Origin: Acidiferrobacterales bacterium
GTDB taxonomy: Bacteria; Pseudomonadota; Gammaproteobacteria; Acidiferrobacterales; JAJDNE01
Reading direction: 5' to 3'
Length of the DNA: 35,601 nucleotides
Assembly (NCBI GenBank): GCA_022340825.1
Contig: JAJDNE010000042.1
Location: 1-35,601, forward strand
A model generated the notes under the pieces. The model was given only the letters and a program-made list of their open reading frames with translations, was not told where the DNA came from and ran no database searches. Made by a program: the position numbers and the translations under genes. Positions 1-31,294 of the stretch are shown in pieces (position 1 is the first letter of the stretch; each line of letters starts with the position of its first letter).

Positions 1-2975
1 ATTTCTGGGTATTGTTTTTCGCCTACCTGATTATGGCGCCGATCTCGGTGATCTGGGCCGCGCAGCTATATGCTGGTTTCGTTCCTCACCCGGTCGACTG
101 GTTTCGTATCAGCATGGTTGCCCTGATCGTATCCATTATTGTTGGCCTGCCCATTTTCTTTTTGATTCTTGATTTATTCGGGCGTGCGTTGACCGGTGTG
201 CCGCTTAAGCGGCCGCACGTGACGGTGCGCACCAAGGTATTCCTCATTGGCGCACTGGTACCGCTGCTGATCGATACCATGCTCGTGCAGTACTACTGGA
301 GCCGTACCGGATTCTTTACGGCAGAGACCTTTGTTGTCTGGCTGTTCCTCGAGTTGCTGGCCATCGGTGGCAGCCTGATTTTCGTCCGGAGCTTTGGCCA
401 GTCGCTGGCCCCGCTGGAAACCATTGTCGGTGGCAAACGTTCCTTTCATGATCTCGATCTCGAGGCACTGCAGTCCCAGTCGACTGATGAGATCGGCGTG
501 CTCACCACTGCCTACCGTGACCTGTTGAACCACTTGCAGGTGCAGGGCGAGATGCTTGAGCTCAATAACCAGCTGTTGCGCAAAACGGGCAACTCTCCGT
601 CGATGGAAAAGGTTGCCAATACTGTCATTTCCCTTGCCGATCGTGCCATCCAGGGAGATAGCAGCTTTCTCATCTTGCACGAGCCGGGGACAGAAAACCT
701 CTTCTGCGTGGCGGAATCCGGAAAGGAATACCGGTCTGATGGTCATTTTCGGATCGCGATGAATGAAGATTCGCTAGCAATCCTTGCATTCAGCCAGGAC
801 AAGACATTTGCCATTGCCGATGTGCAGACCGATCCTCGCTGCAGCCCCCGGTTGCGGCAGCGGTTTAATATCCAGTCTGCCCTGGCAACGCCCCTGCGAC
901 TCGAGGGCAGACCAATTGGTGTACTCATGGTTACCAGTCGTAAAACGCGGCGGGATTATTCAGAGCGCGATGAAGCAGTGCTCCAGGGACTGGCACGTGA
1001 AACAGCTCTGGCGATTAACACGCAGCGCCTGAATGAACGTCATGCGGCCAGCGAAATCGAACGTCGGGAAAAAGAAGCGCTGATCGAGCTCCTGATGAAT
1101 TCTACTGAAGAGGCAATATTCGGTGTTGATACCGATGGCGTTTGTATTTTTGTCAACCGCGCTTGTGTCGAAATGCTGGGCTATGACAACGAATCGGAAT
1201 TGCTGGATAAGAGTATCCATGAGTTGATACATCACACTCGTGCAGACGGCTCTCACTATCCCAAGGCCGAGTGCTCGGTGCGACGAGCTACGCTGGCACA
1301 AACCAGCGCGCATCGGGATGACGAGGTTCATTGGCGCAAGGATGGCACTAGTTTCCCGGTTGAATACTGGTCGCGACCCATTCGCAAAGACGGGGAAATC
1401 GTTGGCACCGTCGTGACCTTCATTGATATCACCGAGCGTCAGTTGGCAGAAAAATATCTACGCGAGAGCGAGATAAGCCTGCGGGAAAGCAAGGAGCAAC
1501 TCAACAGGGTGATAAACAGTGCTGCGATCGTTCTGTTTGCCATCGATCGTGAAGGCGTATTTATTATCTCCGAAGGTCATGGTTTGAAATCTCTGGGGCT
1601 GGTTCCCGGACAGGTAGTGGGGCGTTCGGTGATGGAAGTCTATGCAGACGTACCCGAAATCCTCTCTGATATTGAGCGCGCGCTGAAAGGTGAAGAATTT
1701 GTTTCCGAGTCAACTGTCGGAGATATTATTTTTGAGGTGAATTATTCACCGCTTTACAACGAAGACGGTCAACTGGCGGGGACCATGGGCGTGGCTGTCA
1801 ATGTGACCGAACGCATCAAGGCGCAGCAGGAGTTGGAGCAGAGTAACGAGCGCCTGGAACTGGCGATTGATGCGGGTGATATCGGGATTTGGGAGTGGGA
1901 CCTGGATACAGGTCGCGTAGACTGGTCGGAAAATGTAGAGAGTATATTCGGACTCGAACAGGGAGAATTCGAGGGAACGCTTGCGGATTATAACAAGCGC
2001 GTTTTTCCGGATGACATCGAGATGCTCGGTCAAGCCATCTCGAATGCACTGGAAAAGGATATGCCGTTTTTCGTGGAGCATCGGATCTTCAGGGGCGATG
2101 GCTCGCTTGGCTGGATTTACGGGCAGGCCAAGGTAAAACGCGACGATGCAGGAAAACCGCTAGGCATGATCGGCGTGGTGGCTGACATCACTGACCGTAA
2201 GACGGCGGAAGAACAGATTCGCCTTCACCAGGAACACCTTGAGGAGCTTGTTGACGAGAGGACAACCGAATTACGTGCTGTTAACAAGGAGCTCGAGGCG
2301 TTCTCGTACTCGGTGTCCCACGACTTACGTGCACCGCTACGTAGTATCGACGGATTCAGCCTCGCACTGCTGGAAGATTATGCAGACAAGCTGAATGAAA
2401 ACGGCCGCGACTACCTGAATCGCGTCCGCAATAGTGCCCAGCGAATGTCTGCGCTAATCGATGATCTCCTGGAGTTGTCTCGTGTCACCCGTTCAGAGAT
2501 TAAACGCGAGACTGTCGATTTGTCGGGACTCGCTCTCGACGTTTTCCAGGAACTCGCGTCTTCAGAACCGGCACGCAAGGTAGCGACGCGGGTTGAAAAT
2601 GGAATAACCGCTGTTGGCGATGCGCGATTGCTAAAAGTGGTGCTGGACAATTTGATTGGTAACGCTTGGAAGTACACGGGCAGGAATGACAACGCAAAAA
2701 TTGAGTTTGGGGTGGTTGAGAAGGACGGACTTGTCTCATACTTTGTGAAAGACAACGGTGCGGGATTTGATATGAAATATGCTGATAAACTGTTTGGCGC
2801 TTTTCAGCGTCTGCACAAGGCAGAAGAATTTCCGGGGACCGGCATTGGCCTGGCAACTGTGCAGCGCATTGTTCATCGTCATGGTGGACACGTTTGGGCA
2901 GAAGCTGCGCCAGGTAACGGAGCAATATTCTATTTCAGTCTGAATACGAGCGGCGGAGGAGACGATGGAAAATAG
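1..2975 (+). CDS. Multi-PAS/GAF membrane sensor histidine kinase (5' partial)
   Basis: The frame is open to the window edge, so the N-terminus is missing; the first visible start is a TTG at 12. Numbering residues from there, about four hydrophobic segments lie before residue 127, then a HAMP-like linker, a GAF domain (about 195-335), three PAS domains (about 353-475, 495-600, 607-735), a HisKA domain with phospho-acceptor His770 in SHDLRAPLR, and a HATPase domain with the N-box DNLIGNAWKYT and G-boxes DNGAGFD and GTGIGLA. The kinase core resembles phytochrome-type (Cph1-like) kinases, but no chromophore-binding domain is visible. The stop overlaps the following response regulator by 11 bases, which points to a cognate pair. 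The input signal cannot be read from sequence. Confidence 0.93.
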   Translation, partial: FWVLFFAYLIMAPISVIWAAQLYAGFVPHPVDWFRISMVALIVSIIVGLPIFFLILDLFGRALTGVPLKRPHVTVRTKVFLIGALVPLLIDTMLVQYYWSRTGFFTAETFVVWLFLELLAIGGSLIFVRSFGQSLAPLETIVGGKRSFHDLDLEALQSQSTDEIGVLTTAYRDLLNHLQVQGEMLELNNQLLRKTGNSPSMEKVANTVISLADRAIQGDSSFLILHEPGTENLFCVAESGKEYRSDGHFRIAMNEDSLAILAFSQDKTFAIADVQTDPRCSPRLRQRFNIQSALATPLRLEGRPIGVLMVTSRKTRRDYSERDEAVLQGLARETALAINTQRLNERHAASEIERREKEALIELLMNSTEEAIFGVDTDGVCIFVNRACVEMLGYDNESELLDKSIHELIHHTRADGSHYPKAECSVRRATLAQTSAHRDDEVHWRKDGTSFPVEYWSRPIRKDGEIVGTVVTFIDITERQLAEKYLRESEISLRESKEQLNRVINSAAIVLFAIDREGVFIISEGHGLKSLGLVPGQVVGRSVMEVYADVPEILSDIERALKGEEFVSESTVGDIIFEVNYSPLYNEDGQLAGTMGVAVNVTERIKAQQELEQSNERLELAIDAGDIGIWEWDLDTGRVDWSENVESIFGLEQGEFEGTLADYNKRVFPDDIEMLGQAISNALEKDMPFFVEHRIFRGDGSLGWIYGQAKVKRDDAGKPLGMIGVVADITDRKTAEEQIRLHQEHLEELVDERTTELRAVNKELEAFSYSVSHDLRAPLRSIDGFSLALLEDYADKLNENGRDYLNRVRNSAQRMSALIDDLLELSRVTRSEIKRETVDLSGLALDVFQELASSEPARKVATRVENGITAVGDARLLKVVLDNLIGNAWKYTGRNDNAKIEFGVVEKDGLVSYFVKDNGAGFDMKYADKLFGAFQRLHKAEEFPGTGIGLATVQRIVHRHGGHVWAEAAPGNGAIFYFSLNTSGGGDDGK

Positions 2976-3408
2976 GAAAATACTACTGGTCGAGGACAAT
3001 CCTGACGATGAGGCCCTGACGCTCAGGGCGCTGAAAAAAAACAATATTGCCAACGAAGTTGTCATTACGCGCGACGGCGTCGAGGCGCTTGACTACCTGT
3101 TCGGGGAGGGTGCGCACCAGGGCCGGGATCTTGCGGATCAACCACAAGTAATATTACTGGACCTGAAGTTGCCAAAGGTCGATGGATTGGAGGTGTTGAA
3201 ACGCATTCGTCAAGACGACCGAACCCGGAGACTGCCGGTAGTTATTCTCACGACCTCGAACGAAGACAGCGACATTGTTAGCAGTTACGACCTGGGCGCC
3301 AATAGTTACATTCGCAAGCCGGTGGATTTCGACCAGTTTATGGAGGCTGTGCGGCAACTGGGATTGTACTGGTTGGTGCTGAATGTCACCGCACCGGACG
3401 GCCATTGA
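2965..3408 (+). CDS. Receiver-only response regulator (Rcp1-like)
   Basis: This 147-residue protein is a stand-alone CheY-like receiver domain. The acidic pair is in VEDNPDD (residues 9-15), the phospho-acceptor is Asp66 in LLDLKLPKVDG, the switch Thr lies in ILTTSNE (96-97) and the conserved Lys is 118 in RKP. There is no DNA-binding or enzymatic output domain. The family usually acts as the partner of phytochrome-like kinases, passing phosphate on or acting by protein contact. The ATG is preceded by GGAGGAG and lies inside the kinase gene, which suggests translational coupling. The downstream target is unknown. Confidence 0.93.
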   Translation: MENRKILLVEDNPDDEALTLRALKKNNIANEVVITRDGVEALDYLFGEGAHQGRDLADQPQVILLDLKLPKVDGLEVLKRIRQDDRTRRLPVVILTTSNEDSDIVSSYDLGANSYIRKPVDFDQFMEAVRQLGLYWLVLNVTAPDGH

Positions 3409-3557
3409 CCCCCAGAAGGCTTCCGTGCAATTGCTGCATCGACTAAATACAGGAAGACGGAAAGAGATGTGTTCGTTCACATCATTCCGATCGACAAAAA
3501 GCCCGGTTCTTGCGTGCGGATGATTCCAGGCCGAGCGGAAAACAAGGCATATCGGCG

Positions 3558-4418
3558 ATGAAAACAGGATCGACCCTCAGGTATATCTTGTTAACGATGG
3601 TGTTGGCGACTAGTTTGATGCGCCCGGTAATCGCTCAGGATCGGTTGGTACTCGGAATTCACCCTTATAAAACTTCGGACAAACTGATCAAGGCCTATAC
3701 GCCGCTGGCGGAATACCTAACTCGCAAGGTTGGGTTACCCGTACACATAATAATTTCACCGGACTATCAGCAGCATATCGATACCATTGGCAGGGATCAG
3801 TTTGACATTGCCTACATGGGTCCAGCAGCCTACGTCAAGTTGTTCGACAACTACGGTGAAAAACCGCTTCTGGCACGGCAAGCCGTTCACGGGAAACCGA
3901 CGTTTCAGGGCAAGATCATCGTTCCCAGGGATAGTTCAATCAGGGAAATCAGGCAACTTAAGGGGAAGCGTTTTGCCTTTGGTGACCCCAACTCAACGAT
4001 GAGTCATCTTGTGCCACGCTACATGATGCTGTCAGCGGGTGTAACCACAAACAACCTCAAGAGCTTTCAGTTTCTCGGGTCTCACGACAACGTGGCACTG
4101 GCCGTACTGACCGGCGACTTTGATGCAGGCGCCGTAAAAGAGGCCGTTTTCTACAAGCATGAGGCAAGGGGCTTGCGTGCCATTGCGACAACACCAGCAC
4201 TGTCGGAACACCTTTTTATTACCAGCAGCAGACTGGATCCCGCGTTGGTTACACGGTTGCGTCAGGCAATGCTGACGGTAAACCTGGATCCGGATGGCAA
4301 AGTGATCCTGACCAGCATCAAGAGTGGTGTTACGGCCATGGTGCCGGTTGTTAACAGTGACTACGACAATCTTCGGGAAATCTTGCGCTCGCTCAGGAAT
4401 TCCGGGGTGATCAAGTAG
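3558..4418 (+). CDS. PhnD-like periplasmic substrate-binding protein
   Basis: Starting at ATG 3558, the 286-residue product has a signal peptide (Lys2 onward, hydrophobic core, likely cut after PVIA). It is followed by a PhnD/phosphonate-type periplasmic binding fold: LGIHPYKTSDKL, a typical FDIAYMGPAAYV motif, and the GKRFAFGDPNSTMSHLVP segment. Upstream in-frame TTG 3510 would put non-hydrophobic sequence ahead of the signal peptide, so 3558 is preferred even though its ribosome site is weak. No permease or ATPase gene is present. The histidine kinase downstream starts inside this stop codon (TAGTG). A role as extracytoplasmic ligand sensor for that kinase is more likely than transport, but this is inferred. 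The ligand is unknown. Confidence 0.87.
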   Translation: MKTGSTLRYILLTMVLATSLMRPVIAQDRLVLGIHPYKTSDKLIKAYTPLAEYLTRKVGLPVHIIISPDYQQHIDTIGRDQFDIAYMGPAAYVKLFDNYGEKPLLARQAVHGKPTFQGKIIVPRDSSIREIRQLKGKRFAFGDPNSTMSHLVPRYMMLSAGVTTNNLKSFQFLGSHDNVALAVLTGDFDAGAVKEAVFYKHEARGLRAIATTPALSEHLFITSSRLDPALVTRLRQAMLTVNLDPDGKVILTSIKSGVTAMVPVVNSDYDNLREILRSLRNSGVIK

Positions 4419-5644
4419 TGCCAAGTGCTTTTAGCAGAACTCGCCGCTCTGTATTGGCATTCACTCTTGCAATGCTCGGCTTTCTGGTGTTAGCCGATGC
4501 ACTCATCATTACCCAGCAATCACGCGCCATCCATGCAGAAATGCAACATCACACTGACCACGAGGTGGATCTCTTCGCAAAGCTGGTTGCAGACTCGTTA
4601 ACCCGTAACGATTATGCGGCGGTGGAGCAAGCGGCTATTAGCTGGGCCAGCGAACAGGAAAATATCCTGAAACTGAAAATTGTTACCAGCAACGGCTTCG
4701 ATCTGGTGAATTATTCGCGCAGCAAGGATGTCAGAAGTCAAGATTCCTATAAAAGGAAGATCAGCTACGGCGATGATCATTCGATAAAAATTGATATTGT
4801 AAAGGACACAAGCGGCATTAGCAGTACGCTAACCAATCTGGTGATACAACTGGTAATTATTTCTATTATCCTGGTCGCATTGCTCGGTCTTATTATTCAG
4901 CGCATCGCACTTCGCCCGCTGCAGCGCGAAATCAATCTGCACCGGAAAACGGAGGAATCTTTGCGACATTCCATCGTCGAGCTTGAGTCTATGAACTACT
5001 CGCTTTCGCATGATCTGCGCACTCCGCTGCGGGCCATCACTGGATTCAGCCAGACACTGCGGGACGATGCTGGCTCCAGATTGAGCGCGGAAGAGAGGCA
5101 GAGCCTGGAGCGTATCGAGAACGCCGGCAAGAGCATGGCGGAATTGATCGATGACATTCTGGAATTATCCCGGATGTCGAGCGCGAGGATGTCCAGATCA
5201 TCAATCGACGTCACGAAACTGGCCAGGCAGTGCCTGGAAAACCTGCTATCGAAATATCATGCTAACGAGATAGTGTGGGACATAAAGGAAGGTATGACGG
5301 CGAGCGCTGACCGGAGATTTGTCATCGTTCTTCTGGAAAACCTGCTCGATAACGCCATCAAGTACACGACGAGAACAGAATCCCCGGTTATAAAAATTGG
5401 TAGCCTGAAAAAGGAAGGTGACACCGTCTTTTACGTCCTGGATAACGGTGCTGGTTTTGATATGAAGTTTGCGGACAAGTTGTTTGAACCTTTCCAGCGG
5501 CTGCATCAGGATCAGGGATACACTGGTACTGGCATTGGCCTCGCAATCGCCACCCGTGTCGTGCAACGACATGGCGGACGAATCTGGGCGGAGTCACAAC
5601 CGGGGATGGGATCGACATTCTATTTTACCCTCCCGAACGAATAG
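4418..5644 (+). CDS. Membrane sensor histidine kinase partnered with the PhnD-like protein
   Basis: The GTG start overlaps the preceding stop by one base, a strong sign of coupled translation. The 408-residue protein has an N-terminal membrane segment (about 12-30), a periplasmic region of about 110 residues, a second membrane segment (about 140-163), a short linker, HisKA with His198 in SHDLRTPLR, and a HATPase domain (ENLLDNAIKYT, DNGAGFD, GTGIGLA). Its kinase core closely resembles that of the large kinase at the start of the cluster, sharing FDMK-ADKLF--FQRLH, so the two probably arose from a common ancestor or share the same response regulator. No response regulator follows directly. The periplasmic loop is where a binding protein could dock. 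Confidence 0.92.
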   Translation: MPSAFSRTRRSVLAFTLAMLGFLVLADALIITQQSRAIHAEMQHHTDHEVDLFAKLVADSLTRNDYAAVEQAAISWASEQENILKLKIVTSNGFDLVNYSRSKDVRSQDSYKRKISYGDDHSIKIDIVKDTSGISSTLTNLVIQLVIISIILVALLGLIIQRIALRPLQREINLHRKTEESLRHSIVELESMNYSLSHDLRTPLRAITGFSQTLRDDAGSRLSAEERQSLERIENAGKSMAELIDDILELSRMSSARMSRSSIDVTKLARQCLENLLSKYHANEIVWDIKEGMTASADRRFVIVLLENLLDNAIKYTTRTESPVIKIGSLKKEGDTVFYVLDNGAGFDMKFADKLFEPFQRLHQDQGYTGTGIGLAIATRVVQRHGGRIWAESQPGMGSTFYFTLPNE

Positions 5645-5954: not shown

Positions 5955-7646
5955 ATGTCAATTCCGATTCGCATACTTATAGTCGAAGACTCAGAAGATG
6001 ATGCACTTCTTCTGGTGCGTGAACTAAAGCGTGGCGGTTACACACCGGAACATCGTCGGGTAGAAACCGAGATGGAAATGGCGCAGGAGATGGGTCACCA
6101 GGACTGGGACCTCGTCATCACCGATCACAACATGCCCAACTTCAGCTCCAGCGCTGCACTTCAGGTCGTCAAGGACTCGGGGCGCGATATTCCCATTATC
6201 GTCGTCTCCGGCAGCATCGGCGAGGACATTGCCGTACAAGCAATGAAATCCGGCGCACACGATTACATCATGAAAGACAATCTCACGCGCCTGGTCCCTG
6301 CCATCCGGCGCGAGTTGAGTGAGGCCGAAAATCGCCACGCTCATCGCCAGGCCGAAGAAACCATCCGCCATATGGCATTTCACGATTCGCTCACCGATCT
6401 GGTCAATCGCAGGGAATTTGAACGCCGCGTCGGGCGGGCGCTTGAGCGAGCTCGCGAGCGCGAGTTGACGCATGCATTGCTCTATATCGATCTCGATCAG
6501 TTCAAGATAATCAATGATACAAGTGGCCATATCGCTGGCGACGAACTGTTGCGACAGCTGGCCCATATGCTGAAGAAACATGTTCGCGAGAGCGACACCC
6601 TGGCGCGTCTCGGGGGTGACGAGTTCGGGGCATTGCTGGAAAGCTGCCCGATGAATCGTGCTTATAATATTGCGGAAGCACTACGCCAGGCAATTCGCAA
6701 CTTCCGTTTTGTCTGGGACGGAAAGCCGTTTGCGGTAGGCGCCAGTATCGGCCTGGTAATGATGAATGGCGATACCGTCAGCGCCACGGACGCATTGAGT
6801 GCCGCAGACATGGCGTGTTACGCGGCCAAGGACCTGGGACGCGATCGCATTCACGTATTCGAGAGTGGTGATGAGGAACTCGTACGCCGTCGCGGTGAAA
6901 TGCAGTGGGTAGCGCGTATCAATGATGCGCTGGCGGAAAACCGGTTTACTCTCTACAGCCAGGCGATCCAGCCGCTAAAAAACGGCAACAGAATTCATGC
7001 AGAGTTTTTACTGCGCATGCTTGGCCCGGAATCCCAAGTCGTACCGCCGGGTGCCTTTATCCCGGCTGCAGAGCGCTACAACCTGATGCCAGCGATTGAT
7101 CGCTGGGTAATCGACAATGCCTTTGCCTATCTGTCAGGAGATTCCAGTAAAAAGTCCGGAAAGAAAGATGTGGACAAATACTTCATTAATCTCGCTGGCC
7201 CGTCCTTGAATGACAACAACCTGTTTGACTATATCAAGCGACAAATGGAAAGCTTTCGTCTCGATCCAAAAAAAATCGGTTTTGAGATTACCGAGACGGC
7301 AGCGATCGGCAACATGAGGTTGGCGGTGGAGTTTATCGATGGTATCCGCAAGCTAGGCTGCAGTTTTGCGCTGGATGATTTTGGCAGCGGCCTTTGCTCG
7401 TTTTCCTATCTTAAATCGATCCCGGTTGACTCACTAAAAATAGATGGCTGCTTTGTTCGGAGCATGAAGAACAATCGGATGGACGCTGCGATAGTCCAGG
7501 CGATCAATGAGGTGGGTCATGTGGCCGGGCTAAATACCATTGCTGAGTTCGTTGAAGACAAGGCACTTATTCCGGAGCTTAAGCATCTGGGGGTCGATTA
7601 TGCCCAGGGCTACGGCATTGCGCGCCCGATGCCGCTAAAAAGCTAG
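5955..7646 (+). CDS. Response regulator with GGDEF and EAL domains (cyclic-di-GMP turnover)
   Basis: The 563-residue protein combines a receiver domain (acidic VEDSEDD at 10-16, phospho-acceptor Asp57 in ITDHNMP), a GGDEF diguanylate cyclase domain and an EAL phosphodiesterase domain. The cyclase signature LGGDEF is intact (GGDEF 220-224), with an RESD product-inhibition site five residues before it. The EAL signature reads EFL (Glu350), and the other catalytic positions appear kept: INLAG, FEITE, LDDFGSG, LKID and IAEFVE. Both activities could therefore work, with phosphorylation setting the balance. ATG 5955 has an upstream GGGAAG. It is followed by a PilZ gene, consistent with a local cyclic-di-GMP module. 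Confidence 0.93.
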   Translation: MSIPIRILIVEDSEDDALLLVRELKRGGYTPEHRRVETEMEMAQEMGHQDWDLVITDHNMPNFSSSAALQVVKDSGRDIPIIVVSGSIGEDIAVQAMKSGAHDYIMKDNLTRLVPAIRRELSEAENRHAHRQAEETIRHMAFHDSLTDLVNRREFERRVGRALERARERELTHALLYIDLDQFKIINDTSGHIAGDELLRQLAHMLKKHVRESDTLARLGGDEFGALLESCPMNRAYNIAEALRQAIRNFRFVWDGKPFAVGASIGLVMMNGDTVSATDALSAADMACYAAKDLGRDRIHVFESGDEELVRRRGEMQWVARINDALAENRFTLYSQAIQPLKNGNRIHAEFLLRMLGPESQVVPPGAFIPAAERYNLMPAIDRWVIDNAFAYLSGDSSKKSGKKDVDKYFINLAGPSLNDNNLFDYIKRQMESFRLDPKKIGFEITETAAIGNMRLAVEFIDGIRKLGCSFALDDFGSGLCSFSYLKSIPVDSLKIDGCFVRSMKNNRMDAAIVQAINEVGHVAGLNTIAEFVEDKALIPELKHLGVDYAQGYGIARPMPLKS

Positions 7647-7772: not shown

Positions 7773-8069
7773 ATGACTCAGGCAGATAAAAACAACCCGG
7801 AACGCAGGGAACGTCAACGCAAAAATGACGGTGTAGAAGTGACGGTTGCCATCCCCGGCCGACCGCCTATGACATTGCTGACCTCCGACTATAGTGAGAG
7901 CGGTATATTTTTACTGTACGGTGCCAGGAACAAGCCGGCCGAAGGCAGTGAAATCACTGTCACCTTGGCGGAATTTCTGGGAAGCGACACCCCGATAGCC
8001 ATGGTGGCACGGATCATCCGTGTTGAGGAGCGTGGATTCGCCATCGAATTCGTGGGCCCCGCTGAATAG
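7773..8069 (+). CDS. Single-domain PilZ protein (cyclic-di-GMP receptor)
   Basis: The 98-residue protein is a single PilZ domain. It has an arginine-rich N-terminus (RRERQRKN), a DYSESGIFL segment matching the D/NxSxxG signature, and a closing FAIEFVG strand. These two elements make up the usual cyclic-di-GMP contact surface. It sits 126 bases after the GGDEF-EAL enzyme on the same strand, so it may read the pool set by that enzyme. The sequence gives no clue to the effector partner; some PilZ proteins of this size act on type IV pili or flagella. Ribosome site is poor (ATTGAACG before ATG). Confidence 0.85.
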   Translation: MTQADKNNPERRERQRKNDGVEVTVAIPGRPPMTLLTSDYSESGIFLLYGARNKPAEGSEITVTLAEFLGSDTPIAMVARIIRVEERGFAIEFVGPAE

Positions 8070-8908: not shown

Positions 8909-9613
8909 ATGTCCGCAGCCTCAGAAGAACTCAATCGAAAGCACGCGCTTCTCAATGCCTTTCCATCCCTGAGCGCTGTTGATGATCCACTGTGGGCTGG
9001 CATCGTCGCGGAGGCGGGAATCGTCGAGGCACCCCAGGGCATGGTGATGATGTGCAAGGGCGATCCCTGCAATAACCTGATGCTGATCAGTGAAGGAACT
9101 CTTCGTGTGCATGAAGTATCGGAAGGCGGTCGGGAAATCGTTTTGTATCGGGTCAACCCGGGTGACCTGTGTGTTTTGTCGCTGACCAGCCTGGTTGATG
9201 ATGTCCCCTATGCCGCCGAGGCGGTAAACGAGACCCCGGTCACCGGGCTGGTGATATCGCAGGCGCAATTCCAGGCAGCGCTGGCCGGTTCCGCTGGATT
9301 CAGAAACTTCGTGTTGTCCACCCTTGCGCGACGTCTGTGTGATGTCATGTCATTGGTAGAGGAAATTGCCTTCCGGCGGCTGGACAATCGCCTGGCTTGT
9401 ACGCTGTATCAGCTATTCGATAAGGACGACAGCGGTACCCTGAAGATTACCCACCAGGATCTGGCCAAGGAGTTAGGAACTTCCCGTGAGGTCATGAGCC
9501 GTTTACTCAAGGAATTTGAGCAGTCACGCGGCTGCATTCGTCTGCGTCGCGGCGCTATCGAGCTGGTCTCAAAAGACGGTTTGGCGGAATACGCCAAGCG
9601 GGATTTCTCCTGA
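8909..9613 (+). CDS. Crp/Fnr-family transcriptional regulator
   Basis: The 234-residue protein has a cyclic-nucleotide-binding-like beta-roll (about 25-140), a dimerisation helix (about 140-170) and a C-terminal winged helix-turn-helix (about 178-205), whose recognition helix contains GTSREVMSRLLKEFE with the Fnr-type E--SR pattern. It lacks the N-terminal cysteine cluster of oxygen-sensing Fnr; the visible cysteines (49, 54, 88, 144, 164, 209) are not arranged as an iron-sulfur ligand set. The sensory input is unclear: redox, nitric oxide, cyclic nucleotide or other. A palindrome upstream and a CRP-like site just downstream are possible targets. Confidence 0.9.
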   Translation: MSAASEELNRKHALLNAFPSLSAVDDPLWAGIVAEAGIVEAPQGMVMMCKGDPCNNLMLISEGTLRVHEVSEGGREIVLYRVNPGDLCVLSLTSLVDDVPYAAEAVNETPVTGLVISQAQFQAALAGSAGFRNFVLSTLARRLCDVMSLVEEIAFRRLDNRLACTLYQLFDKDDSGTLKITHQDLAKELGTSREVMSRLLKEFEQSRGCIRLRRGAIELVSKDGLAEYAKRDFS

Positions 9614-15699: not shown

Positions 15700-16899
15700 T
15701 TAGGCCGAGGCGCTAGCCGGGGCCAGGGTATAAGTGCGGATCCTGCTCGAAAATTCTTCAAGTGCCCTGATACCCGTTGCCTCTGCCTGATGACACCAGT
15801 CTTCGAGGGCGCGAAGCAAATTTTCCTGGGTGGCAGTTCGACTTTCCCAGATAGCCTGCAATTTCTTTTTCATCTGATAGACAGTGTTGAGAGTCTGACT
15901 CTTGTCCAAAACACGCTGCAATCGTTCGCGGTTGGTCTGGTTAAGATGGCTTGGCTCACGTTTCAGTAATCGGCGTGCTTTTTTAACAAGCGCCCAGCTT
16001 TCGCGATCTGTTCGATCCAGTTTGCGCAGTTCTTCGCGATGGACGTTCTTGAGCACGTCACGACTGAAGCGTGCCATGATCTGGAATCGATTGCGGACCA
16101 CCGCCCGAACCGTATCAAGGTCAATTGTTTTCTTGTTTGGATCCGAGAGTAATTGTGGTGGCAGCTTCTTCACCCGGGCAAGACCGAACGCTTGCAGTAT
16201 CCGGATATACATCCAGCCAATATCAAATTCCCACCACTTGGCAGAGAGCTTGGCCGAGCTGCCGTAGGTATGGTGGTTGTTGTGAAGCTCTTCGCCGCCA
16301 ATAAGAATGCCCCACGGCACAATGTTGGTGCTGGCGTCGGCAACTTCGAAGTTGCGATAGCCCCAGAAGTGACCGATACCATTAATGACACCCGCGGCCC
16401 AGAACGGAATCCAGACCATTTGCACCAGCCACATGATGCTCCCCGCCAGTACGCCAAATAGCGCCAGGTCGATCCCGAGCATTAGCACGATGCCGAGCCA
16501 GTTAAGCGGTGTATACAGGTGATGTTCCAGCCAGTCATCCGGTGTACCGAAACCGTATTGTTCAATCGTATCCCGGTTCTTTGCTTCGTCGTGGTACAGG
16601 AATGCGCCGGTCCAGAGTACGCGGTTCAGGCCCTTCTGGATCGGGCTATGCGGATCGTCGGGTGTCTCGACCTTGGCGTGGTGCTTGCGGTGAATCGCTG
16701 CCCATTCGCGCGTTATCTGGCCGGTGGTCAACCAGAGCCAGAAACGAAAGAAGTGGCTGACAAGAGGATGCAGCTCCAGTGCCCGATGGGCCTGGTGACG
16801 GTGCAGGAAAATGGTGACGCTGGCAATGGTGATATGGGTAAGCGCGAGCGTTGTCAGGACGTAGCCCCACCAGGGCATGTGCAATAGGCCGTTTAGCAT
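15700..16899 (-). CDS. Membrane fatty acid (acyl-CoA delta-9 type) desaturase
   Basis: The 399-residue integral membrane diiron enzyme has the three histidine boxes of the family: HRHQAH (His33-38), HRKHH (70-74) and HNNHH (206-210), plus an additional His177 in IGHFWG. Hydrophobic segments flank the boxes (about 12-32, 45-60, 132-170). The enzyme puts a double bond into saturated acyl chains and so adjusts membrane fluidity. The C-terminal 140 residues are helical, charged and beyond the catalytic core. A perfect TATAAT lies upstream at 16952-16957. It converges with the HNH gene, six bases apart. Confidence 0.94.
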   Translation of the reverse strand: MLNGLLHMPWWGYVLTTLALTHITIASVTIFLHRHQAHRALELHPLVSHFFRFWLWLTTGQITREWAAIHRKHHAKVETPDDPHSPIQKGLNRVLWTGAFLYHDEAKNRDTIEQYGFGTPDDWLEHHLYTPLNWLGIVLMLGIDLALFGVLAGSIMWLVQMVWIPFWAAGVINGIGHFWGYRNFEVADASTNIVPWGILIGGEELHNNHHTYGSSAKLSAKWWEFDIGWMYIRILQAFGLARVKKLPPQLLSDPNKKTIDLDTVRAVVRNRFQIMARFSRDVLKNVHREELRKLDRTDRESWALVKKARRLLKREPSHLNQTNRERLQRVLDKSQTLNTVYQMKKKLQAIWESRTATQENLLRALEDWCHQAEATGIRALEEFSSRIRTYTLAPASASA

Positions 16900-16951
16900 T
16901 CTGTGGAATTCCTCTGAGATCGGGGAGCGTTTCGGGTGAGCATTATGCTTA

Positions 16952-16957
16952 ATTATA
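16952..16957 (-). promoter_or_regulatory. TATAAT -10 element for the desaturase gene
   Basis: On the minus strand a perfect TATAAT lies 52 bases before the desaturase ATG. The -35 region 17 bases further up does not fit the consensus well, so an activator or a chance match in AT-rich DNA is possible. Confidence 0.4.
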
Positions 16958-17040
16958 GTTAATATGGAGGCGGGCAGACTATCTACAAGCGCTGCCTGTT
17001 ATCCTATTGAATTACTTGAACTTCTTCACAGGTGCCTGCC

Positions 17041-17481
17041 ATGCCCAGACCGGAAACGCCCAGCCTTGCTGCCGACACGATCATCGAGCTCAAGGACCGG
17101 CCCGGTCGGCCGATTGTCCTGATTGAGCGCAAATTTCCACCTTACGGCTGGGCGATTCCGGGTGGCTTTGTCGACATCGGGGAGTCGCTGGAACAGGCGG
17201 CTGCCCGTGAGGCAAAGGAAGAGACCACGCTGGTGGTTACGCTAATGCGATTGCTTGGCGTGTATTCGGATCCACGCCGCGATATCCGTGGCCATACCGT
17301 GTCAGCGGTCTATGTGGTCGAGGCCAGCGGCGAGCCGACGGCGCAAGACGATGCGAAAAATGTTGGCGTATTTGATCTGGATGACCTGCCGGCGGAGTTG
17401 GCGTTTGATCATGCCCGCATACTGGACGACTACCGGCATTTGCGCGAAACCGGGGAACTGCCGCCTATTCAAGACCGGTAA
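17041..17481 (+). CDS. NUDIX hydrolase
   Basis: The 146-residue protein (from ATG 17041, preceded by AGGTG) contains a NUDIX box at 42-64: GFVDIGE, seven residues, then REAKEETTL. The usual Gly in EExGx is a Thr, while the metal-binding Glu residues remain. It resembles ADP-ribose pyrophosphatase/NUDT-like enzymes with PYGWAIPGGFVDIGE, but the substrate cannot be decided. GTG 17032 is an alternative start, three codons earlier. It appears to be a single-gene unit. Confidence 0.9.
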   Translation: MPRPETPSLAADTIIELKDRPGRPIVLIERKFPPYGWAIPGGFVDIGESLEQAAAREAKEETTLVVTLMRLLGVYSDPRRDIRGHTVSAVYVVEASGEPTAQDDAKNVGVFDLDDLPAELAFDHARILDDYRHLRETGELPPIQDR

Positions 17482-17493
17482 AAGTTACAGGCG

Positions 17494-17520
17494 AAAAAAG
17501 AGCCCGCACTAAGGCGGGCT
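17494..17520 (-). terminator. Intrinsic terminator of the sigma/anti-sigma/DsrE operon
   Basis: Read leftward, a 7-bp stem (AGCCCGC with GCGGGCT, 6-base loop) is followed by C and a run of six Ts (complement of 17494-17499). It lies 44 bases after the DsrE stop. In the rightward direction there is no U-run. Confidence 0.85.
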
Positions 17521-17563
17521 GAGGAGGGGAAATCTTTATTAAATTATAGTTATTAGTGCTGGC

Positions 17564-18007
17564 TTACGGACGAATGTAAGCAAAGCCCTTCTTCTGCAGG
17601 TGAGCGATTTCAGCAACACCGCTTGGTACCTTGTCTTTGGCTGGATCAAAACCGAACAGCTTGTTTTCGTCCAGTTTCTTGCCGCGGATGGTGTTGGCAC
17701 ACAGCTGGAATTTAACGCCCTTGTCTTTCAGGGAGATGATGCTGTTCTGCAACTCTAGATCGGTGTTGGCAGCTTCCAGCAGGGTGTAACCCTTGCCGTG
17801 CATGACGACGCGCAGGTCCAGCTTGTCGGCACCAACAGCCTTGATGTGATTGTTGATGTTACGCAGCATGCCTTTCTGGCGCTTCGGGTTGTCATAGTTC
17901 AGGTGATAAACAACTTTCTGCTTGCCATAACCGCCGGCAACGGCGCTGGTGGCGCTGAAACCTAAGGTGAGCATAGCAGCAACTGCGATAGCGATAACTT
18001 TCTTCAT
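17564..18007 (-). CDS. Secreted DsrE-family protein
   Basis: The 147-residue protein starts with a clear signal peptide (MKK, hydrophobic core, cleavage near SAVA-GG, residue 24). The mature part is a DsrE/DsrF-like domain with one conserved cysteine, Cys103 in LCANTI, and an ending SGVAEIAHLQKKGFAYI. The same Cys-x-Asn-Thr-Ile and Val-Ala-x-Ile---Gln--Gly-x-Ala-Tyr-Ile patterns occur in the membrane anti-sigma protein upstream, so the two are paralogues. DsrE relatives bind or transfer sulfur through a cysteine in the cytoplasm; a periplasmic form suggests handling of a sulfur or redox signal outside the membrane. The start has AGGAG before it. Confidence 0.9.
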   Translation of the reverse strand: MKKVIAIAVAAMLTLGFSATSAVAGGYGKQKVVYHLNYDNPKRQKGMLRNINNHIKAVGADKLDLRVVMHGKGYTLLEAANTDLELQNSIISLKDKGVKFQLCANTIRGKKLDENKLFGFDPAKDKVPSGVAEIAHLQKKGFAYIRP

Positions 18008-18044
18008 AACTCGTAGCTCCTGTAAACGATTGTAGTAATAATGT

Positions 18045-18059
18045 GTGGTTGAAAACCAC
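18045..18059 (-). other. Short hairpin between the anti-sigma and DsrE genes
   Basis: GTGGTT and AACCAC form a 6-bp stem with a 3-base loop, overlapping the end of the anti-sigma stop codon. There is no U-run, so it is unlikely to terminate. It could protect the downstream DsrE message after processing, letting the two proteins accumulate at different levels. Confidence 0.35.
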
Positions 18060-18808
18060 TAGACCTGGATATAGGCCCAGCCCTCTTGTTGGCGCCGCAT
18101 GATCTGCGCCACCCCAGAGTCGATCACGACAATACCAGGCAGCAGGCTTGCGGTAATACCGCGCTCGCTTTTCAGTCTGTCGATTGTATTTTGACAAGTA
18201 ACGAAAGTCAGATTTTTATATTTCTTCTGTAGCGCGAGGATCCGATCAGGGTACGGCGAGGTATCCTTGCGAAGCAAATCAATGCCACCTCCGTTGGTGA
18301 TCATTTCTACGCGCGCCTTTTGGCCGGTTCGCTTGTAAAAAGCCAACACACCTTCAAGTTCGTCCAGGGCCTCGTGCACCTTTTCCGGGTCGCGGCTGTT
18401 CAGGTGAAACAGAACCTTGGTGCTATTGTCGGCGGCAACCGTCGTGGCGGTCGTACGTTCACGCGCGTTGCTGGCGCTGTAGATACTACCATCGCTTTGT
18501 ACCGGACCGATTTGCCATCCGATCAATACGCCGACGGCCAGCAGAATGCTCGCGGCGATACCGGTGATCCAGTGGCGCGAACCGGACCCATTCGGACCGC
18601 TGTTATCACTCGAGCCACCAGGTGAGGCGGGTAGTCCCTGATATGCAAGCTGGACCAGGTCCTTGCAACTACGCAATTCGCATACGCCTTTTTTTATATC
18701 ATCGTCTTTCGTAAGTGAGACGTAGAGCTGTTCCTTCTCTTCAGTCGTCAACTGACCGTCGACAAAGGCGTTTAGCATCTCGTCTGAAACCCTGATTTTG
18801 TCGTTCAT
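18059..18808 (-). CDS. Transmembrane anti-sigma factor with periplasmic DsrE-like domain
   Basis: The 249-residue protein has an anti-sigma-like N-terminus (residues 1-60; LNAFVDGQLTTEEKEQL is typical), a Gly/Ser-rich linker (62-78), one membrane segment (about 79-101) and a C-terminal DsrE-like domain (about 125-249) that would face the periplasm. Its Cys205 in TCQNTI aligns with Cys103 of the secreted paralogue, and the two C-termini are clearly alike. The His-x3-Cys-x2-Cys zinc motif of ZAS anti-sigmas is absent, although Cys43 and Cys48 are present. The start overlaps the sigma gene stop (ATGA), as usual for such pairs. Reading: the DsrE domain is the sensor that controls sigma release. 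This is inferred. Confidence 0.85.
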   Translation of the reverse strand: MNDKIRVSDEMLNAFVDGQLTTEEKEQLYVSLTKDDDIKKGVCELRSCKDLVQLAYQGLPASPGGSSDNSGPNGSGSRHWITGIAASILLAVGVLIGWQIGPVQSDGSIYSASNARERTTATTVAADNSTKVLFHLNSRDPEKVHEALDELEGVLAFYKRTGQKARVEMITNGGGIDLLRKDTSPYPDRILALQKKYKNLTFVTCQNTIDRLKSERGITASLLPGIVVIDSGVAQIMRRQQEGWAYIQV

Positions 18809-19359
18809 TTCACTCTCCGGAGGATCGCTTCCTGCAGGCCGGGTTGTTTTTCAAATTCGGTGAGCAGGCGCTCTTTCAGCGCATTACGGGCCCGACACAA
18901 ACGGCTCATCACCGTCCCGATCGGAATATCGAGGATGTTGGACACCTCGTTGTAACTGAACCCCTCCAGATCCACCAGCGTCATGACTTGTCGTTGACCT
19001 TCAGCCAGTGTCGCCACTGACCGACGGACTTTGTCGACAATTTGCAGTTGATCGGTTTCCGTTTCCGGGGTGGTATCGTCCACCAGCGTAATGTTATCGA
19101 TGTCTTCGGTTTCCCGGTTCCGGCGAAAATGGTCGTTATAACAATTGGACAGAATGCTGAAGAGCCAGGCCTGGCCGGCTTTCGGGTCACGCAATTGATC
19201 GGATTTGCGATAGGCCTTCAGTAGCGTTTCCTGAACCAGATCATCCGCCAGTGCAGCGTTATGGCACCAGGAAAAGGCAACCCGATAAAGGCGGGCGCGG
19301 GACTGTTCCAGTTGATTCCTGGAATCCCGATTACGGCGAAAAATATCGAATAATTCCAT
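18805..19359 (-). CDS. ECF-type RNA polymerase sigma factor
   Basis: The 184-residue protein has sigma-70 region 2 (about 20-85; LADDLVQETLLKAY and an AWLFSILSNCYNDHFRR segment) and region 4 (about 110-170; LEGFSYNEVSNIL, IPIGTVMSRLCRARNAL), with no region 3, as in ECF factors. It is the first gene of a three-gene leftward operon and overlaps the anti-sigma gene by four bases. A candidate ECF promoter lies 53-80 bases upstream, so it probably activates its own operon. The regulon outside the window is unknown. Confidence 0.95.
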   Translation of the reverse strand: MELFDIFRRNRDSRNQLEQSRARLYRVAFSWCHNAALADDLVQETLLKAYRKSDQLRDPKAGQAWLFSILSNCYNDHFRRNRETEDIDNITLVDDTTPETETDQLQIVDKVRRSVATLAEGQRQVMTLVDLEGFSYNEVSNILDIPIGTVMSRLCRARNALKERLLTEFEKQPGLQEAILRRVK

Positions 19360-19411
19360 GCAGTCTCGATTCAGCTTCCGGAGATCGCAGCTTGCGATTG
19401 TTATGGTGTTC

Positions 19412-19439
19412 TAGACGCCGGCCTACTGGCTTTTATTCC
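19412..19439 (-). promoter_or_regulatory. Candidate ECF promoter of the sigma operon
   Basis: On the minus strand, GGAATAA (complement of 19433-19439), a 15-base spacer and CGTCTA (complement of 19412-19417) match the general ECF pattern of a GGAA-type -35 and a CGTC-type -10. The expected start is about 45 bases before the sigma ATG. A 10-bp inverted repeat (19420-19429 with 19439-19448, one G-T type mismatch) overlaps the spacer and -35, as an operator might. Confidence 0.45.
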
Positions 19440-19505
19440 CGGTAGGCCATTTTATTTTATTATGTTGATTCAACAAGTTAACACGTTTCCGCGGTTTAGG
19501 CGTAG

Positions 19506-19540
19506 AAAAAACAGTTATTTTTCAGGTATTCAGCTGTTTT
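19506..19540 (-). terminator. Weak terminator after purN
   Basis: Read leftward, AAAACAG pairs with CTGTTTT around a 19-base loop and is followed by Ts (six in total, complement of 19506-19511). The stem is AT-rich and overlaps the last purN codons, so efficiency may be low. Confidence 0.4.
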
Positions 19541-20180
19541 CCAGCCCCTGTTCGTCGACCTGCCTGCCATCGATCAGGACCTTGCCATCGACAACACTCA
19601 GACGGTTCTCGGCAAACCAGCCGACCGCCTTCGGGTAGATCCGGTGTTCCTGTTCCAGTACCCGCTTCGCAAGCTGATCTGCGGTATCGTCACCGGCAAC
19701 ATTAACCGCGGCCTGAATAATGATTGGCCCGACATCAACGTCGTGGGTGACGAAGTGCACGGTGGCACCGTGGCGGGCAGCGCCGGCGGCAATCGCCCGT
19801 TCATGTGTGTTCAGTCCAGGGAAGGCCGGTAACAGGGCGGGGTGGATATTAATGAGTCGACCAGCGTAGTGATCGACGAAGTCTTTACCAAGGATGCGCA
19901 TGAAGCCGGCAAGCACAACCAGCTCCGGGTGATGTTGATCGATAAGACGCGTTAGTTCCAGGTCGAAGGCCTCACGACTGTCAAACTGGTGATGATCGAG
20001 CGCATAGGCCTCGATACCATTCTCGCGGGCATAAACTAGCCCGGCAGCATTGGGATCGTTGCTGATGACTGCACGAACGCTAACCGGTATTTTTTTCTGT
20101 TTGGCTGCTTCAACGATGGCCTGCATGTTACTGCCGCGACCCGAAATCAGGATGACGATTCCCATCAGATCGTTCGTCAT
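19530..20180 (-). CDS. purN: Phosphoribosylglycinamide formyltransferase
   Basis: The 216-residue enzyme transfers a formyl group from 10-formyl-tetrahydrofolate to GAR, the third step of purine synthesis. It shows the N-terminal ISGRGSNMQAI loop, the catalytic Asn/His region INIHPALLPAFPG and the catalytic Asp in HDVDVGPII. The ATG shares one base with the purM stop (TAATG), so translation is coupled. Confidence 0.97.
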   Translation of the reverse strand: MTNDLMGIVILISGRGSNMQAIVEAAKQKKIPVSVRAVISNDPNAAGLVYARENGIEAYALDHHQFDSREAFDLELTRLIDQHHPELVVLAGFMRILGKDFVDHYAGRLINIHPALLPAFPGLNTHERAIAAGAARHGATVHFVTHDVDVGPIIIQAAVNVAGDDTADQLAKRVLEQEHRIYPKAVGWFAENRLSVVDGKVLIDGRQVDEQGLENS

Positions 20181-24697: not shown

Positions 24698-26380
24698 TCA
24701 GCCGATTTCGTCGTACTCAAAGTGCTCGAAGACGGGTGTGGTCTCGACCAACCGGGTGACCATGGCCTTGACCAGCCTGTAGCCGTCATCAAAAAATATT
24801 TCGCGGCCCGGTTTAAATACTCCCTTGTAGGTCAACAATCCGTGTTTCTGTTTTATCGCGGCCAATTCCGGGACCATGATCGCGGGCATGAAGTCCGACT
24901 CGGTATTGTCGTCAGCCATCATTTTCAATTGCACCGGTCGTGCTACTGGCGAAATACGCTTCATGCCGACGCTGAGCGTGCCCGTGTCTGTCGTTTTGAC
25001 CCAGCGAATACTGCTGACCTCCCATAGCCCTTCTTCGGAGGAGCGTACCGAGATCAAGTCACCGACCCGAACGCGCTGGTGTTTGACGCCGTCTTTTGCG
25101 ATTGCAAGGCCGCCGGCACTCTCATCCTGGATATTCCAGCTTGCATAAATAAGCTCAGGATCAATCTCCATCGTCTGGCTGTCGGTGCTGTTGCCCATTG
25201 CCATCAGATCGATTTCGGTGGTGTCGACAAACTTGTTGCCTAGCCGTGCGCGCTGCTGTGGCATCGGGCCGACGAATTCCGAACTAAGAATGAACGGGCG
25301 ACCGTGGTTCAACCAGTGATTGATTGCACGAATACCGATGGCGACATCGACGTGACTGCCACGTTTTGGCGTCCGGTTAAAGTTGCGCTTGGGAATGACA
25401 CCCCAGGAGCTGAGCAGTCGCTTCAGCATTTCCTTTGTAGTCCGGTCATCGAAGAAATCACTGTGTAGACCTTCCGTTGCCGGTTTTTCGCCCTTCTGCA
25501 ACTGAGTCAATTGGGAATGAATCAGTTTCGCCAGTTCGAGTGTATTCAGTAGTCGGTACTGCTGTTCGCTAAATGTAACCTCGGTCGGAAACATGATTTC
25601 GCCGGCCCGGTCGTTATGTAAATCGACCAGGAACTGACAATTCTTTCCGGGGACGGGTGAAGGCGGGCCAAGTTTGGCCAGTGAGGCCCAGCGATTCAGG
25701 TAGTGCTGGATCATTTCGACCAGCCTGACCGGCAGATGATATGGGTCACTGAAGTCGACCAGCAGCGCCTGCTTGTAGACATGGGAAACTGTGGACTGTG
25801 GTTGTGTCTGGTTGAGGGCATCGTCGACGTTCTGTTCGCTCACGCCGTAGGCGTCCGCCAGTTGGTACAGTTGATGTATTTCATGCCAGATGTTGTCGGG
25901 TGGTTTTGCGTAGTACTGGTAAGACTTCACCAGTGTCTCGGCAAGATAACGAATGGCGCGTTGCAGCAGGATGGCCAGTGATCCCATTGCCCGGGTACTC
26001 GGACGACCCTTTAAGGAATCCATGGCATTAATCACCAGGCGCTTGTAGCCGAAGGCCATTTCGATTTGCAGGGAGCGCGCGCGTTGCGCTGCCTGGTGTC
26101 CCTTGTGCGGCAACGGCAAGGGCAGGCCAATGTAGTCACCCTTTAGTTCCGTGCACATGCGCGCGACAGGCTCGCGATATACCTCAAGCAGCCTGAAGCG
26201 GGTCTTGTCGTCAATTTCCATCCGGTTGAGTGCTGCCAGCGCGTTATAAATCTGGTAACTGGTCTCAGTGGGATTGAGCAACGGAAGCCCGGCGAGCCAT
26301 TGCTCCGCTTTCGCGGGCTTGGTCTCAACGAGCGTCATGTTCTCGGGATCCATCTCCGGAACGATTAGATTTAAATCCAT
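24698..26380 (-). CDS. 560-residue protein with PilZ-like signatures
   Basis: I do not recognise this protein with certainty. The first 300 residues look alpha-helical and soluble, with no signal or membrane segment. Near residue 332 there is an arginine cluster (RNFNRTPKR, fitting RxxxR) followed by VDVAIGIRAINHWL. After an insert of about 55 residues comes WNIQDESAGGLAI (Asp419, Ser421, Gly424), fitting DxSxxG, then a beta-rich stretch ending VGMKRISP. Together these fit a PilZ-type cyclic-di-GMP site split by an insert. Homologous proteins are often annotated vaguely. It has a good sigma-70 promoter and is a single-gene unit. A cyclic-di-GMP receptor role is inferred only. Confidence 0.72.
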   Translation of the reverse strand: MDLNLIVPEMDPENMTLVETKPAKAEQWLAGLPLLNPTETSYQIYNALAALNRMEIDDKTRFRLLEVYREPVARMCTELKGDYIGLPLPLPHKGHQAAQRARSLQIEMAFGYKRLVINAMDSLKGRPSTRAMGSLAILLQRAIRYLAETLVKSYQYYAKPPDNIWHEIHQLYQLADAYGVSEQNVDDALNQTQPQSTVSHVYKQALLVDFSDPYHLPVRLVEMIQHYLNRWASLAKLGPPSPVPGKNCQFLVDLHNDRAGEIMFPTEVTFSEQQYRLLNTLELAKLIHSQLTQLQKGEKPATEGLHSDFFDDRTTKEMLKRLLSSWGVIPKRNFNRTPKRGSHVDVAIGIRAINHWLNHGRPFILSSEFVGPMPQQRARLGNKFVDTTEIDLMAMGNSTDSQTMEIDPELIYASWNIQDESAGGLAIAKDGVKHQRVRVGDLISVRSSEEGLWEVSSIRWVKTTDTGTLSVGMKRISPVARPVQLKMMADDNTESDFMPAIMVPELAAIKQKHGLLTYKGVFKPGREIFFDDGYRLVKAMVTRLVETTPVFEHFEYDEIG

Positions 26381-29173: not shown

Positions 29174-29210
29174 CCAACGCTATCTTTTCTGACTGATTCA
29201 GACTGTGCCG

Positions 29211-30512: not shown

Positions 30513-30526
30513 GCGGAGAGACCACC

Positions 30527-31294
30527 ATGCGTAATACAAGACTTGTGCTATCGGTAATGTCGTTGTTCATTACCAGCGCGGCCATGGCAGCCGGATTCGA
30601 TGGCAAGGTGGAATGGGCGAGACGTGTGGCTGTTAGTGTCCCGGTCTCCGGAATCGTTGAATCGATCGCAGTGGACACCGGACAGCCGATCAAGAAAGGG
30701 CAATTGCTGTTGCAGTTGGAACAAACACCATTCGTTGCCGAGCTGGAAGAAGCCAAGGCGGCGCGGAACCAGGCGGCCGGTGATCGCCGCGAGGCCGAGC
30801 GAGACTATAAACAAACGAAGGAACTCTACGATCGCGGGCTGATTTCCAACGTCGAACTGGAAAATGCAGAACTCAAGGCCAAGCGGGCTAGCGCTGCCTG
30901 GAACGCGGCCGGTGCGCGGCTCAAACGGGCTGAATACGACCTCGGACACAGCCGGCTGGTGGCCCCGTTTAATGGCTGGTTACTGGGGCGCAACGCCCAG
31001 GTCGGACAGACAATAATCAGTACGCAGCAGGCACAAACTCTGCTGGTGATTGCCGCGGCAAACGAATATCTCGCCCGTGCCGAGGTGCCCGGCAAGAAAC
31101 TGCGTGATTTGAAAATGGGTGATCGTGCGGTAGTCGAGGTTGCTGACAAGAAGTTTAACGGCGTGATCACCGTACTGGGTCTGGAACCGGTTGCCGGCAG
31201 GAAGAAAGACGACACCTACTATGAAGTCGCTATTTCGTTCAACAGTGGCGGTGCGTTGTTGCGTGCGGGTCAACAGGCAGAGGTTAGTTTCTAG
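30527..31294 (+). CDS. HlyD/RND-type periplasmic membrane-fusion adaptor
   Basis: The 255-residue protein has a signal peptide (ending MAA-GF), a split lipoyl domain (VSVPVSGIVESIAVDTGQPIKKGQLL in part; LVAPFNGWLLGRNAQVGQ), a coiled-coil hairpin (about 70-130, rich in Ala/Glu/Lys/Arg) and a beta-barrel. It would bridge an inner membrane pump and the TolC-like channel. It is short for the family (usually 330-400), missing the membrane-proximal domain. No pump gene follows, so it may serve a pump encoded elsewhere. Confidence 0.9.
   Translation: MRNTRLVLSVMSLFITSAAMAAGFDGKVEWARRVAVSVPVSGIVESIAVDTGQPIKKGQLLLQLEQTPFVAELEEAKAARNQAAGDRREAERDYKQTKELYDRGLISNVELENAELKAKRASAAWNAAGARLKRAEYDLGHSRLVAPFNGWLLGRNAQVGQTIISTQQAQTLLVIAAANEYLARAEVPGKKLRDLKMGDRAVVEVADKKFNGVITVLGLEPVAGRKKDDTYYEVAISFNSGGALLRAGQQAEVSF

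Follow-up and report, generated by a model that had tools for sequence, protein, structure and literature searches.

In strain NT-26, the PhnD-family gene aioX overlaps a sensor kinase gene by 4 bp, and the regulator of this system, AioR, is of the AtoC type, according to excerpts of PMC5908839. PhnD-like domains also form part of TtrS and ThsS, where they serve a kinase for an oxyanion, namely tetrathionate or thiosulfate (excerpt of PMC5408782). In the NspS-MbaA system, a periplasmic polyamine input is passed on to c-di-GMP (excerpt of PMC8967002). Many kinases activated by solute-binding proteins are encoded beside a binding-protein gene, with ligands of the amino-acid type such as GABA and aminovalerate (excerpt of PMC11113362), and a kinase encoded beside its binding protein is a known arrangement. 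Within the binding-protein clan, only SBP_bac_3 is presented as studied in c-di-GMP networks in the excerpted part of a review (PMC8846402). Literature searches restricted to open-licence PubMed Central returned no paper on a PhnD-type protein together with a diguanylate cyclase and, judged by title, none on the present pair; among the papers returned, the work on thiosulfate and tetrathionate kinases is relevant.

The stretch of DNA analysed here (the window) comprises 35,601 nucleotides of a contig from an Acidiferrobacterales bacterium. Near one end it carries the following features.

12-2975, plus strand: second kinase, multi-PAS (GAF and PAS, HisKA, HATPase_c), overlapping the receiver gene
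2965-3408, plus strand: single-domain receiver, Rcp1/CheY-like (PF00072, E 6.2e-22)
3558-4418, plus strand: PhnD/PtxB-family periplasmic binding protein gene, 286 amino acids, ATG at 3558 and TAG stop at 4416-4418
4418-5644, plus strand: sensor histidine kinase gene, 408 amino acids, GTG start at 4418, HisKA and HATPase_c, no HAMP match
4514-4837, plus strand: likely PAS/Cache-like periplasmic domain of this kinase, approximately residues 33-140, model pLDDT 94.1
5955-7646, plus strand: Rec-GGDEF-EAL response regulator with GGDEF, RxxD site and DDFG present; the EAL motif reads EFL
7773-8069, plus strand: PilZ-domain protein (PF07238, E 3.3e-08) with RxxxR and DxSxxG motifs

A first-pass annotation had described a PhnD-like protein whose stop codon shares a base with the start codon of a histidine kinase gene. 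The shared base is G4418, common to TAG and GTG, and GGGGTG is seen by eye approximately 10 bases 5' of the kinase GTG. Both family assignments are confirmed by profile matches: the binding protein matches PF12974 (Phosphonate-bd) over residues 32-269 with E 5.6e-69 and scores 156.8 bits against TIGR01098, above the cut-off of 112.05, and the kinase matches HisKA (E 3.2e-17) and HATPase_c (E 3.9e-25). Against the PhnD equivalog TIGR03431 the binding protein reaches 140.6 bits, below the cut-off of 261.1, and its closest solved sequence is PtxB (5o2j, E 1.6e-33). Its N-terminal hydrophobic stretch reads, by eye, as a signal peptide, and the protein is presumably exported. In the kinase, the motifs SHDLRTPL, DNGAGFD and GTGIGLA are found at 197, 342 and 370, respectively, and hydrophobicity scanned in 19-residue windows has its maxima at residues 13-31 and 142-160. 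Since the modelled domain fits between these peaks, the periplasmic loop is approximately 105-110 residues long, in keeping with the 110 or so that had been proposed.

The pair of binding protein and kinase is a conserved unit that recurs in distantly related bacteria, as the annotation had suggested checking. The first relatives found through the binding protein reside in a Thiobacillaceae MAG (L025, 52% identical) and a Nitrospiraceae MAG (L026, 50%), with a third in genome G048 (L030, 49%), and in each the next gene, at -1, -4 and +6 bp, respectively, encodes a kinase whose periplasmic domain is related to that of the window. When the membrane-anchored periplasmic part alone was searched against 369 genomes of the class and 398 of the phylum, matches at E<=1e-4 were found in 31 class and 26 phylum genomes, with the window's genome in both counts. 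We examined 58 loci from this search, a portion of all its matches, and 36 of them hold a phmmer match to the window's domain. A PhnD-like gene lies upstream on the same strand for 27 of these 36 domain proteins, 22 times at -35 to +12 bp, and a PhnD-like gene is also present in 8 of the 22 other, weaker loci. Adding L025, L026 and L030 brings the count to 30 of 39 domain proteins with an upstream PhnD-like gene, 25 of them at -35 to +12 bp, and because 22 of the 30 recurring pairs are spaced at -4 to +12 bp, the pairing is not a matter of chance. The widest-spaced pairs are L079, at 416 bp, and L104, with a 242-bp overlap and an uncertain start codon. Nine of the 39 domain proteins have no PhnD-like gene upstream; L053 and L091 are at contig ends, and the other seven stand without one.

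The reverse search used 18 binding proteins against the same 369 class genomes, with the best few candidates per genome scored. Among those candidates, 16 matches (window included) were detected at E<=1e-80, and the domain is directly downstream in 13 of these 16 close homologues; as 10 of the 16 are query rows, the search chiefly asks whether additional, unpartnered members exist. One homologue, in G149, is at a contig end, and the domain is at another contig end of the same genome, while the homologue in G154:C188 comes after a different kinase. A partnerless close homologue in G293:C9 (L160, 1-571 and 960-1835) is followed by a same-strand 16S rRNA start and then the contig end, a neighbourhood that may be an assembly join. 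The next weaker matches examined comprise 15 loci (L143-L157), six beside a kinase and six beside a GGDEF protein. In the other three, which encode proteins of approximately 630 amino acids in three genomes, at L147 (1498-3396), L148 (1501-3393) and L150 (337-2241), the PhnD-like domain is C-terminal, starting from residue 385-389.

Nearly all binding proteins linked to this domain form a clade of their own. In a tree of 74 proteins, whose rows were selected by neighbour gene, which favours a single-clade result, 30 of 31 domain-linked binding proteins, including that of the window, fall into one clade with support 99/97, and L099 falls outside it. The clade is separate from PtxB, from GGDEF-linked proteins and from AioX and ArrX, the last two being represented by long branches and partial sequences. 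A second PhnD-family clade, in which the pocket serine is replaced by alanine, is found beside single GGDEF genes (L032, L033, L035, L038, L039, L040, L064, L072 and L073) and is probably another sensor family. PhnD-like domains also occur in other architectures. The 543-residue protein at L031 (8503-10134, G022:C69) joins what appears by eye to be a soluble chemotaxis-receptor-like domain, with no obvious membrane segment, to a PhnD-like domain at residues 289-542 that keeps the S-T of the pocket. In the window's own genome (G000:C3), L028 (5086-6702) encodes 538 residues with two tandem PhnD-like domains and overlaps by one base a GGDEF-EAL gene at 2753-5086.

The predicted pocket is well conserved across the 31 domain-linked proteins: S146 is present in 31, T147 in 30, K194 in 29, Y or F at position 37 in 28, M148 and H176 in 26 each, and H218 in 25. 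Compared with the PtxB site, whose residue roles, including the capping function of Y203, are described in an excerpt of PMC5700983, S146, T147 and H176 are kept, whereas M148 replaces S126, K194 replaces S173, H218 replaces the capping Y203, and Y or F at 37 replaces D16. The full set, S-T-M/H/K/H with Y or F, which sets most of these pockets apart from those of PtxB, ArrX and TtrS-like proteins, occurs in none of 38 other family members, among which single residues recur (K194 in 12, H218 in 8). The closest other pockets belong to the kinase neighbours L070 and L074, with Y/F37, S146, H176 and H218. In L047, a protein encoded in a phosphonate-dehydrogenase operon, the PtxB residues D/STS/Y are retained.

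These residues suggest that the ligand may be a tetrahedral oxyanion, or a small compound with such a head, other than phosphite or arsenite. A phosphite-type ligand as in PtxB is disfavoured by Y37, H218 and S-T-M in place of the D16/Y203 cap and S-T-S. The AioX Cys106 column holds Gly88, and the Asp210 column holds Lys194; arsenite was rejected on this missing cysteine and on the separation of the clade from AioX and ArrX. Tetrathionate and thiosulfate were likewise set aside, as the pocket differs in 10 loci matching the TtrS model, all 10 below the TtrS cut-off. Flanking genes gave no shared metabolic gene as a clue to the ligand: in an all-against-all comparison of 23 loci and the first 14 kb of the window, with matches to signalling and transporter queries removed beforehand, no family was present in more than two loci.

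The periplasmic domain of the kinase is predicted to begin with a long and then a short helix, to continue with four strands and to end in another long helix (pLDDT 94.1). The window's domain has no Pfam match, and the 35 members scanned gave scattered weak ones, one of which is CHASE8 at 0.0011. A Foldseek search returned nothing at E<=0.001, with 4u64 best at E 0.013. In VIA-align, where long helices raise Z and ribosomal chains reach 8-8.8, the top row is an integrative WalK-YycH model (Z 13.3 over 186 residues, including membrane helices), followed by the extracellular domain of WalK (4ywz_B, Z 10.3, 110 residues, 2.3 A), and the LapD-type 4u64 (Z 9.8) and CusS (Z 9.0) are also near. By this modelled fold, the domain is likely PAS/Cache-like.

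Distances in the trees of the binding protein and of the periplasmic domain are correlated (r 0.62, 27 pairs, with L060, L081, L082 and L099 excluded beforehand as odd or short), and none of 2000 permutations reaches this value. Shared descent alone could yield some correlation, but the kinase core should then show it too. Among 16 systems with a measurable core, the correlation is 0.66 between binding protein and domain, 0.28 between binding protein and core, and 0.18 between domain and core, the permutations pertaining to the 27-pair set. A structure of the pair was approached through a read-through of five in-frame gene pairs together with 53 single rows, and L056 was predicted. The resulting model has pLDDT 96.1 and pTM 0.78, and the structures nearest to its binding-protein part are ArrX and PtxB. 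One 79-residue helix joins the two parts; because this linking helix is a product of the read-through, the model says nothing on docking.

The PAS/Cache-like domain might itself sense the anion, with the binding protein merely supplying or buffering the ligand. Its predicted fold is that of domains able to bind ligands directly, for example CitA, and some relatives lack an upstream binding-protein gene. The domain sequence is variable, however, with W76 as the sole nearly invariant residue across 35 rows, whereas the pocket of the binding protein is conserved, and we consider direct sensing by the kinase improbable.

The binding protein could also be the substrate-binding component of an ABC transporter, with permease and ATPase encoded elsewhere and the adjacency to the kinase incidental or regulatory. 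It does belong to the Phosphonate-bd/TIGR01098 family, and approximately 14% of the genome is missing from the assembly. No window ORF of at least 80 amino acids matches the one PhnC and one PhnE query used (phmmer, 1e-4), which agrees with the annotation's remark that no transporter lies beside the pair; the efflux-type genes OEP and HlyD, at 29205-31294, are 24 kb off. The assembled genome (2.19 Mb, 86% complete) contains no PhnE above cut-off and one 20-bit partial match. Near the 16 close homologues, no PhnE occurs in the flanking stretches examined, some of which end at contig ends. The annotation had named an ABC transporter beside orthologues as grounds for abandoning its reading, and the closest approach to this outcome is a divergent ABC ATPase near one of the 16 (L117, in G387), which counts in favour of a transporter role. 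The absence of PtxB-type cap residues, the tight pairing and the co-variation with the periplasmic domain also speak against a transporter role, which we regard as very improbable. The proposal that the binding protein serves the kinase in ligand sensing is instead supported by the recurrence of the unit and the lack of PhnE near its homologues, and further by the co-variation.

Two other ORFs of the window may be mentioned here. On the minus strand, a 399-residue ORF at 15700-16899 matches both a fatty acid desaturase (residues 10-219) and an ISL3 transposase (268-390), with no obvious terminal repeats around it in a repeat search. The 560-residue ORF at 24698-26380, also on the minus strand, has no Pfam match at 1e-5.

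The periplasmic module is found on more than one kind of output. Among 39 relatives, some of whose loci are shortened by contig ends, it is carried by 29 kinase cores and by six GGDEF or GGDEF-EAL proteins, and in four the output was not recognised. In the window, the genes flanking the pair are signalling genes as well, and the first-pass annotation was silent on those for c-di-GMP. The second kinase (12-2975), which may start before the contig, has a core resembling that of the kinase at 4418 (3e-65). Both kinases carry phosphorylation and nucleotide-binding motifs, and the two receivers have the motifs expected of receivers; we take the motifs of the kinases, receivers, GGDEF and PilZ proteins to have their customary meanings. 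Judged by its domain and motifs, the receiver at 2965-3408 is a possible phosphoacceptor, the Rec-GGDEF-EAL protein a probable c-di-GMP output, and the PilZ protein a possible c-di-GMP receptor. In 24 other wide loci, phmmer detected no counterpart of the PilZ protein, a search that a diverged PilZ domain could escape.

Of 24 wide loci, some of them shortened by contig ends, five have a receiver and a Rec-GGDEF-EAL gene adjoining the pair (the window, L025, L030, L113 and L123). Close relatives of the window's receiver come after the pair in L025 (9e-78), L113 (3e-65) and L123 (4e-66). A weaker binding-protein match, L163 (E 3.7e-62), is also found with a receiver and a Rec-GGDEF-EAL gene. L030 additionally carries, at 15862-19786, a set of kinase, receiver and Rec-GGDEF-EAL genes that lacks a binding protein; the pair may therefore have been added to output genes already in place, or the set may serve another kinase. 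The same binding protein and kinase might act on gene expression or another receiver, while the Rec-GGDEF-EAL and PilZ genes serve the second kinase or act alone. In the window, the second kinase overlaps the receiver gene and the Rec-GGDEF-EAL gene starts 311 bp past the kinase stop, and several relatives of the kinase have a receiver domain of their own. Such an arrangement is harder to reconcile with the recurrence of both genes after the pair in L025, L030, L113 and L123, and with the six of 39 relatives in which GGDEF or GGDEF-EAL domains are on the periplasmic module itself. Moreover, domain scans of five genes in this neighbourhood turned up no DNA-binding regulator; a Crp-type regulator is at 8909-9613. 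We judge an output other than c-di-GMP unlikely, while granting it appreciable weight.

Our preferred reading, held with somewhat more confidence than doubt, is a three-component sensor in which a signal would pass from the binding protein through the PAS-like domain and the kinase to receivers and c-di-GMP. The exported binding protein would close on a small oxyanion and, either loaded or empty, dock on the PAS/Cache-like domain of the kinase, setting its activity in one direction or the other. The kinase would then phosphorylate the neighbouring receiver, the Rec-GGDEF-EAL protein or both, and the phosphorylated receivers would alter c-di-GMP; in the window, the PilZ protein may act as effector. 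This reading draws on the observed genes, domains, overlap, recurrence, co-variation, distinct pocket and exchange of outputs, and on receiver and Rec-GGDEF-EAL neighbours observed in a minority of loci.

To a broader proposal we give even weight for and against: that this is an output-neutral sensory module, in which a PhnD-fold clade of its own, with an S-T-M/H/K/H pocket and a ligand foreign to known PhnD-family sensors and transporters, is combined with a co-evolving PAS/Cache-like domain that Pfam does not recognise, on kinases, diguanylate cyclases or GGDEF-EAL enzymes. If true, a widespread oxyanion-sensing family would join the small number of PhnD-type sensors whose ligands are known, and one periplasmic input would be reused on kinases and c-di-GMP enzymes. 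It would also caution annotators that, in these bacteria, many binding proteins labelled "phosphonate ABC transporter" may in fact act as sensors. Because the pocket is conserved, candidate ligands can be tested directly.

By analogy, the pair appears to work like AioX-AioS, and it is not a member of that family. As in AioX-AioS-AioR and in ArrX/ArxX systems, a PhnD-family gene overlaps a sensor kinase gene, by 4 bp in strain NT-26 and by one base here. Unlike these systems, the pair belongs to a clade of 30 that excludes AioX and ArrX (support 99/97), with Gly88 and Lys194 in the columns of AioX Cys106 and Asp210. The periplasmic domains of AioS and of the window's kinase are weakly alike (hhalign probability 26.7%). 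Where AioX and ArxX/ArrX-XSR systems have an AtoC- or CitB-type regulator, a receiver and a Rec-GGDEF-EAL protein are found here, with neither type of regulator beside the pair, and no arsenic molybdoenzyme is among the 25 window proteins scanned. TtrS and ThsS differ in carrying the PhnD-like part within the kinase polypeptide, whereas here there are two overlapping genes, and the pocket columns are unlike those of the 10 TtrS-model matches, which are all below the TtrS cut-off and do not include true TtrS. The transporter proteins PtxB and PhnD are alike in being the nearest solved structures by sequence and in sharing the S-T and His oxyanion residues, but D16, S126 and Y203 of PtxB are Y, M and H here, and no permease or ATPase was found by the PhnC and PhnE search of the window or the PhnE search of the assembled genome. 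NspS comes from another binding-protein family, and MbaA is itself the enzyme. The window's pair, with its kinase, differs from NspS-MbaA in this respect, whereas its GGDEF-EAL relatives resemble that system in having the module on the enzyme itself.
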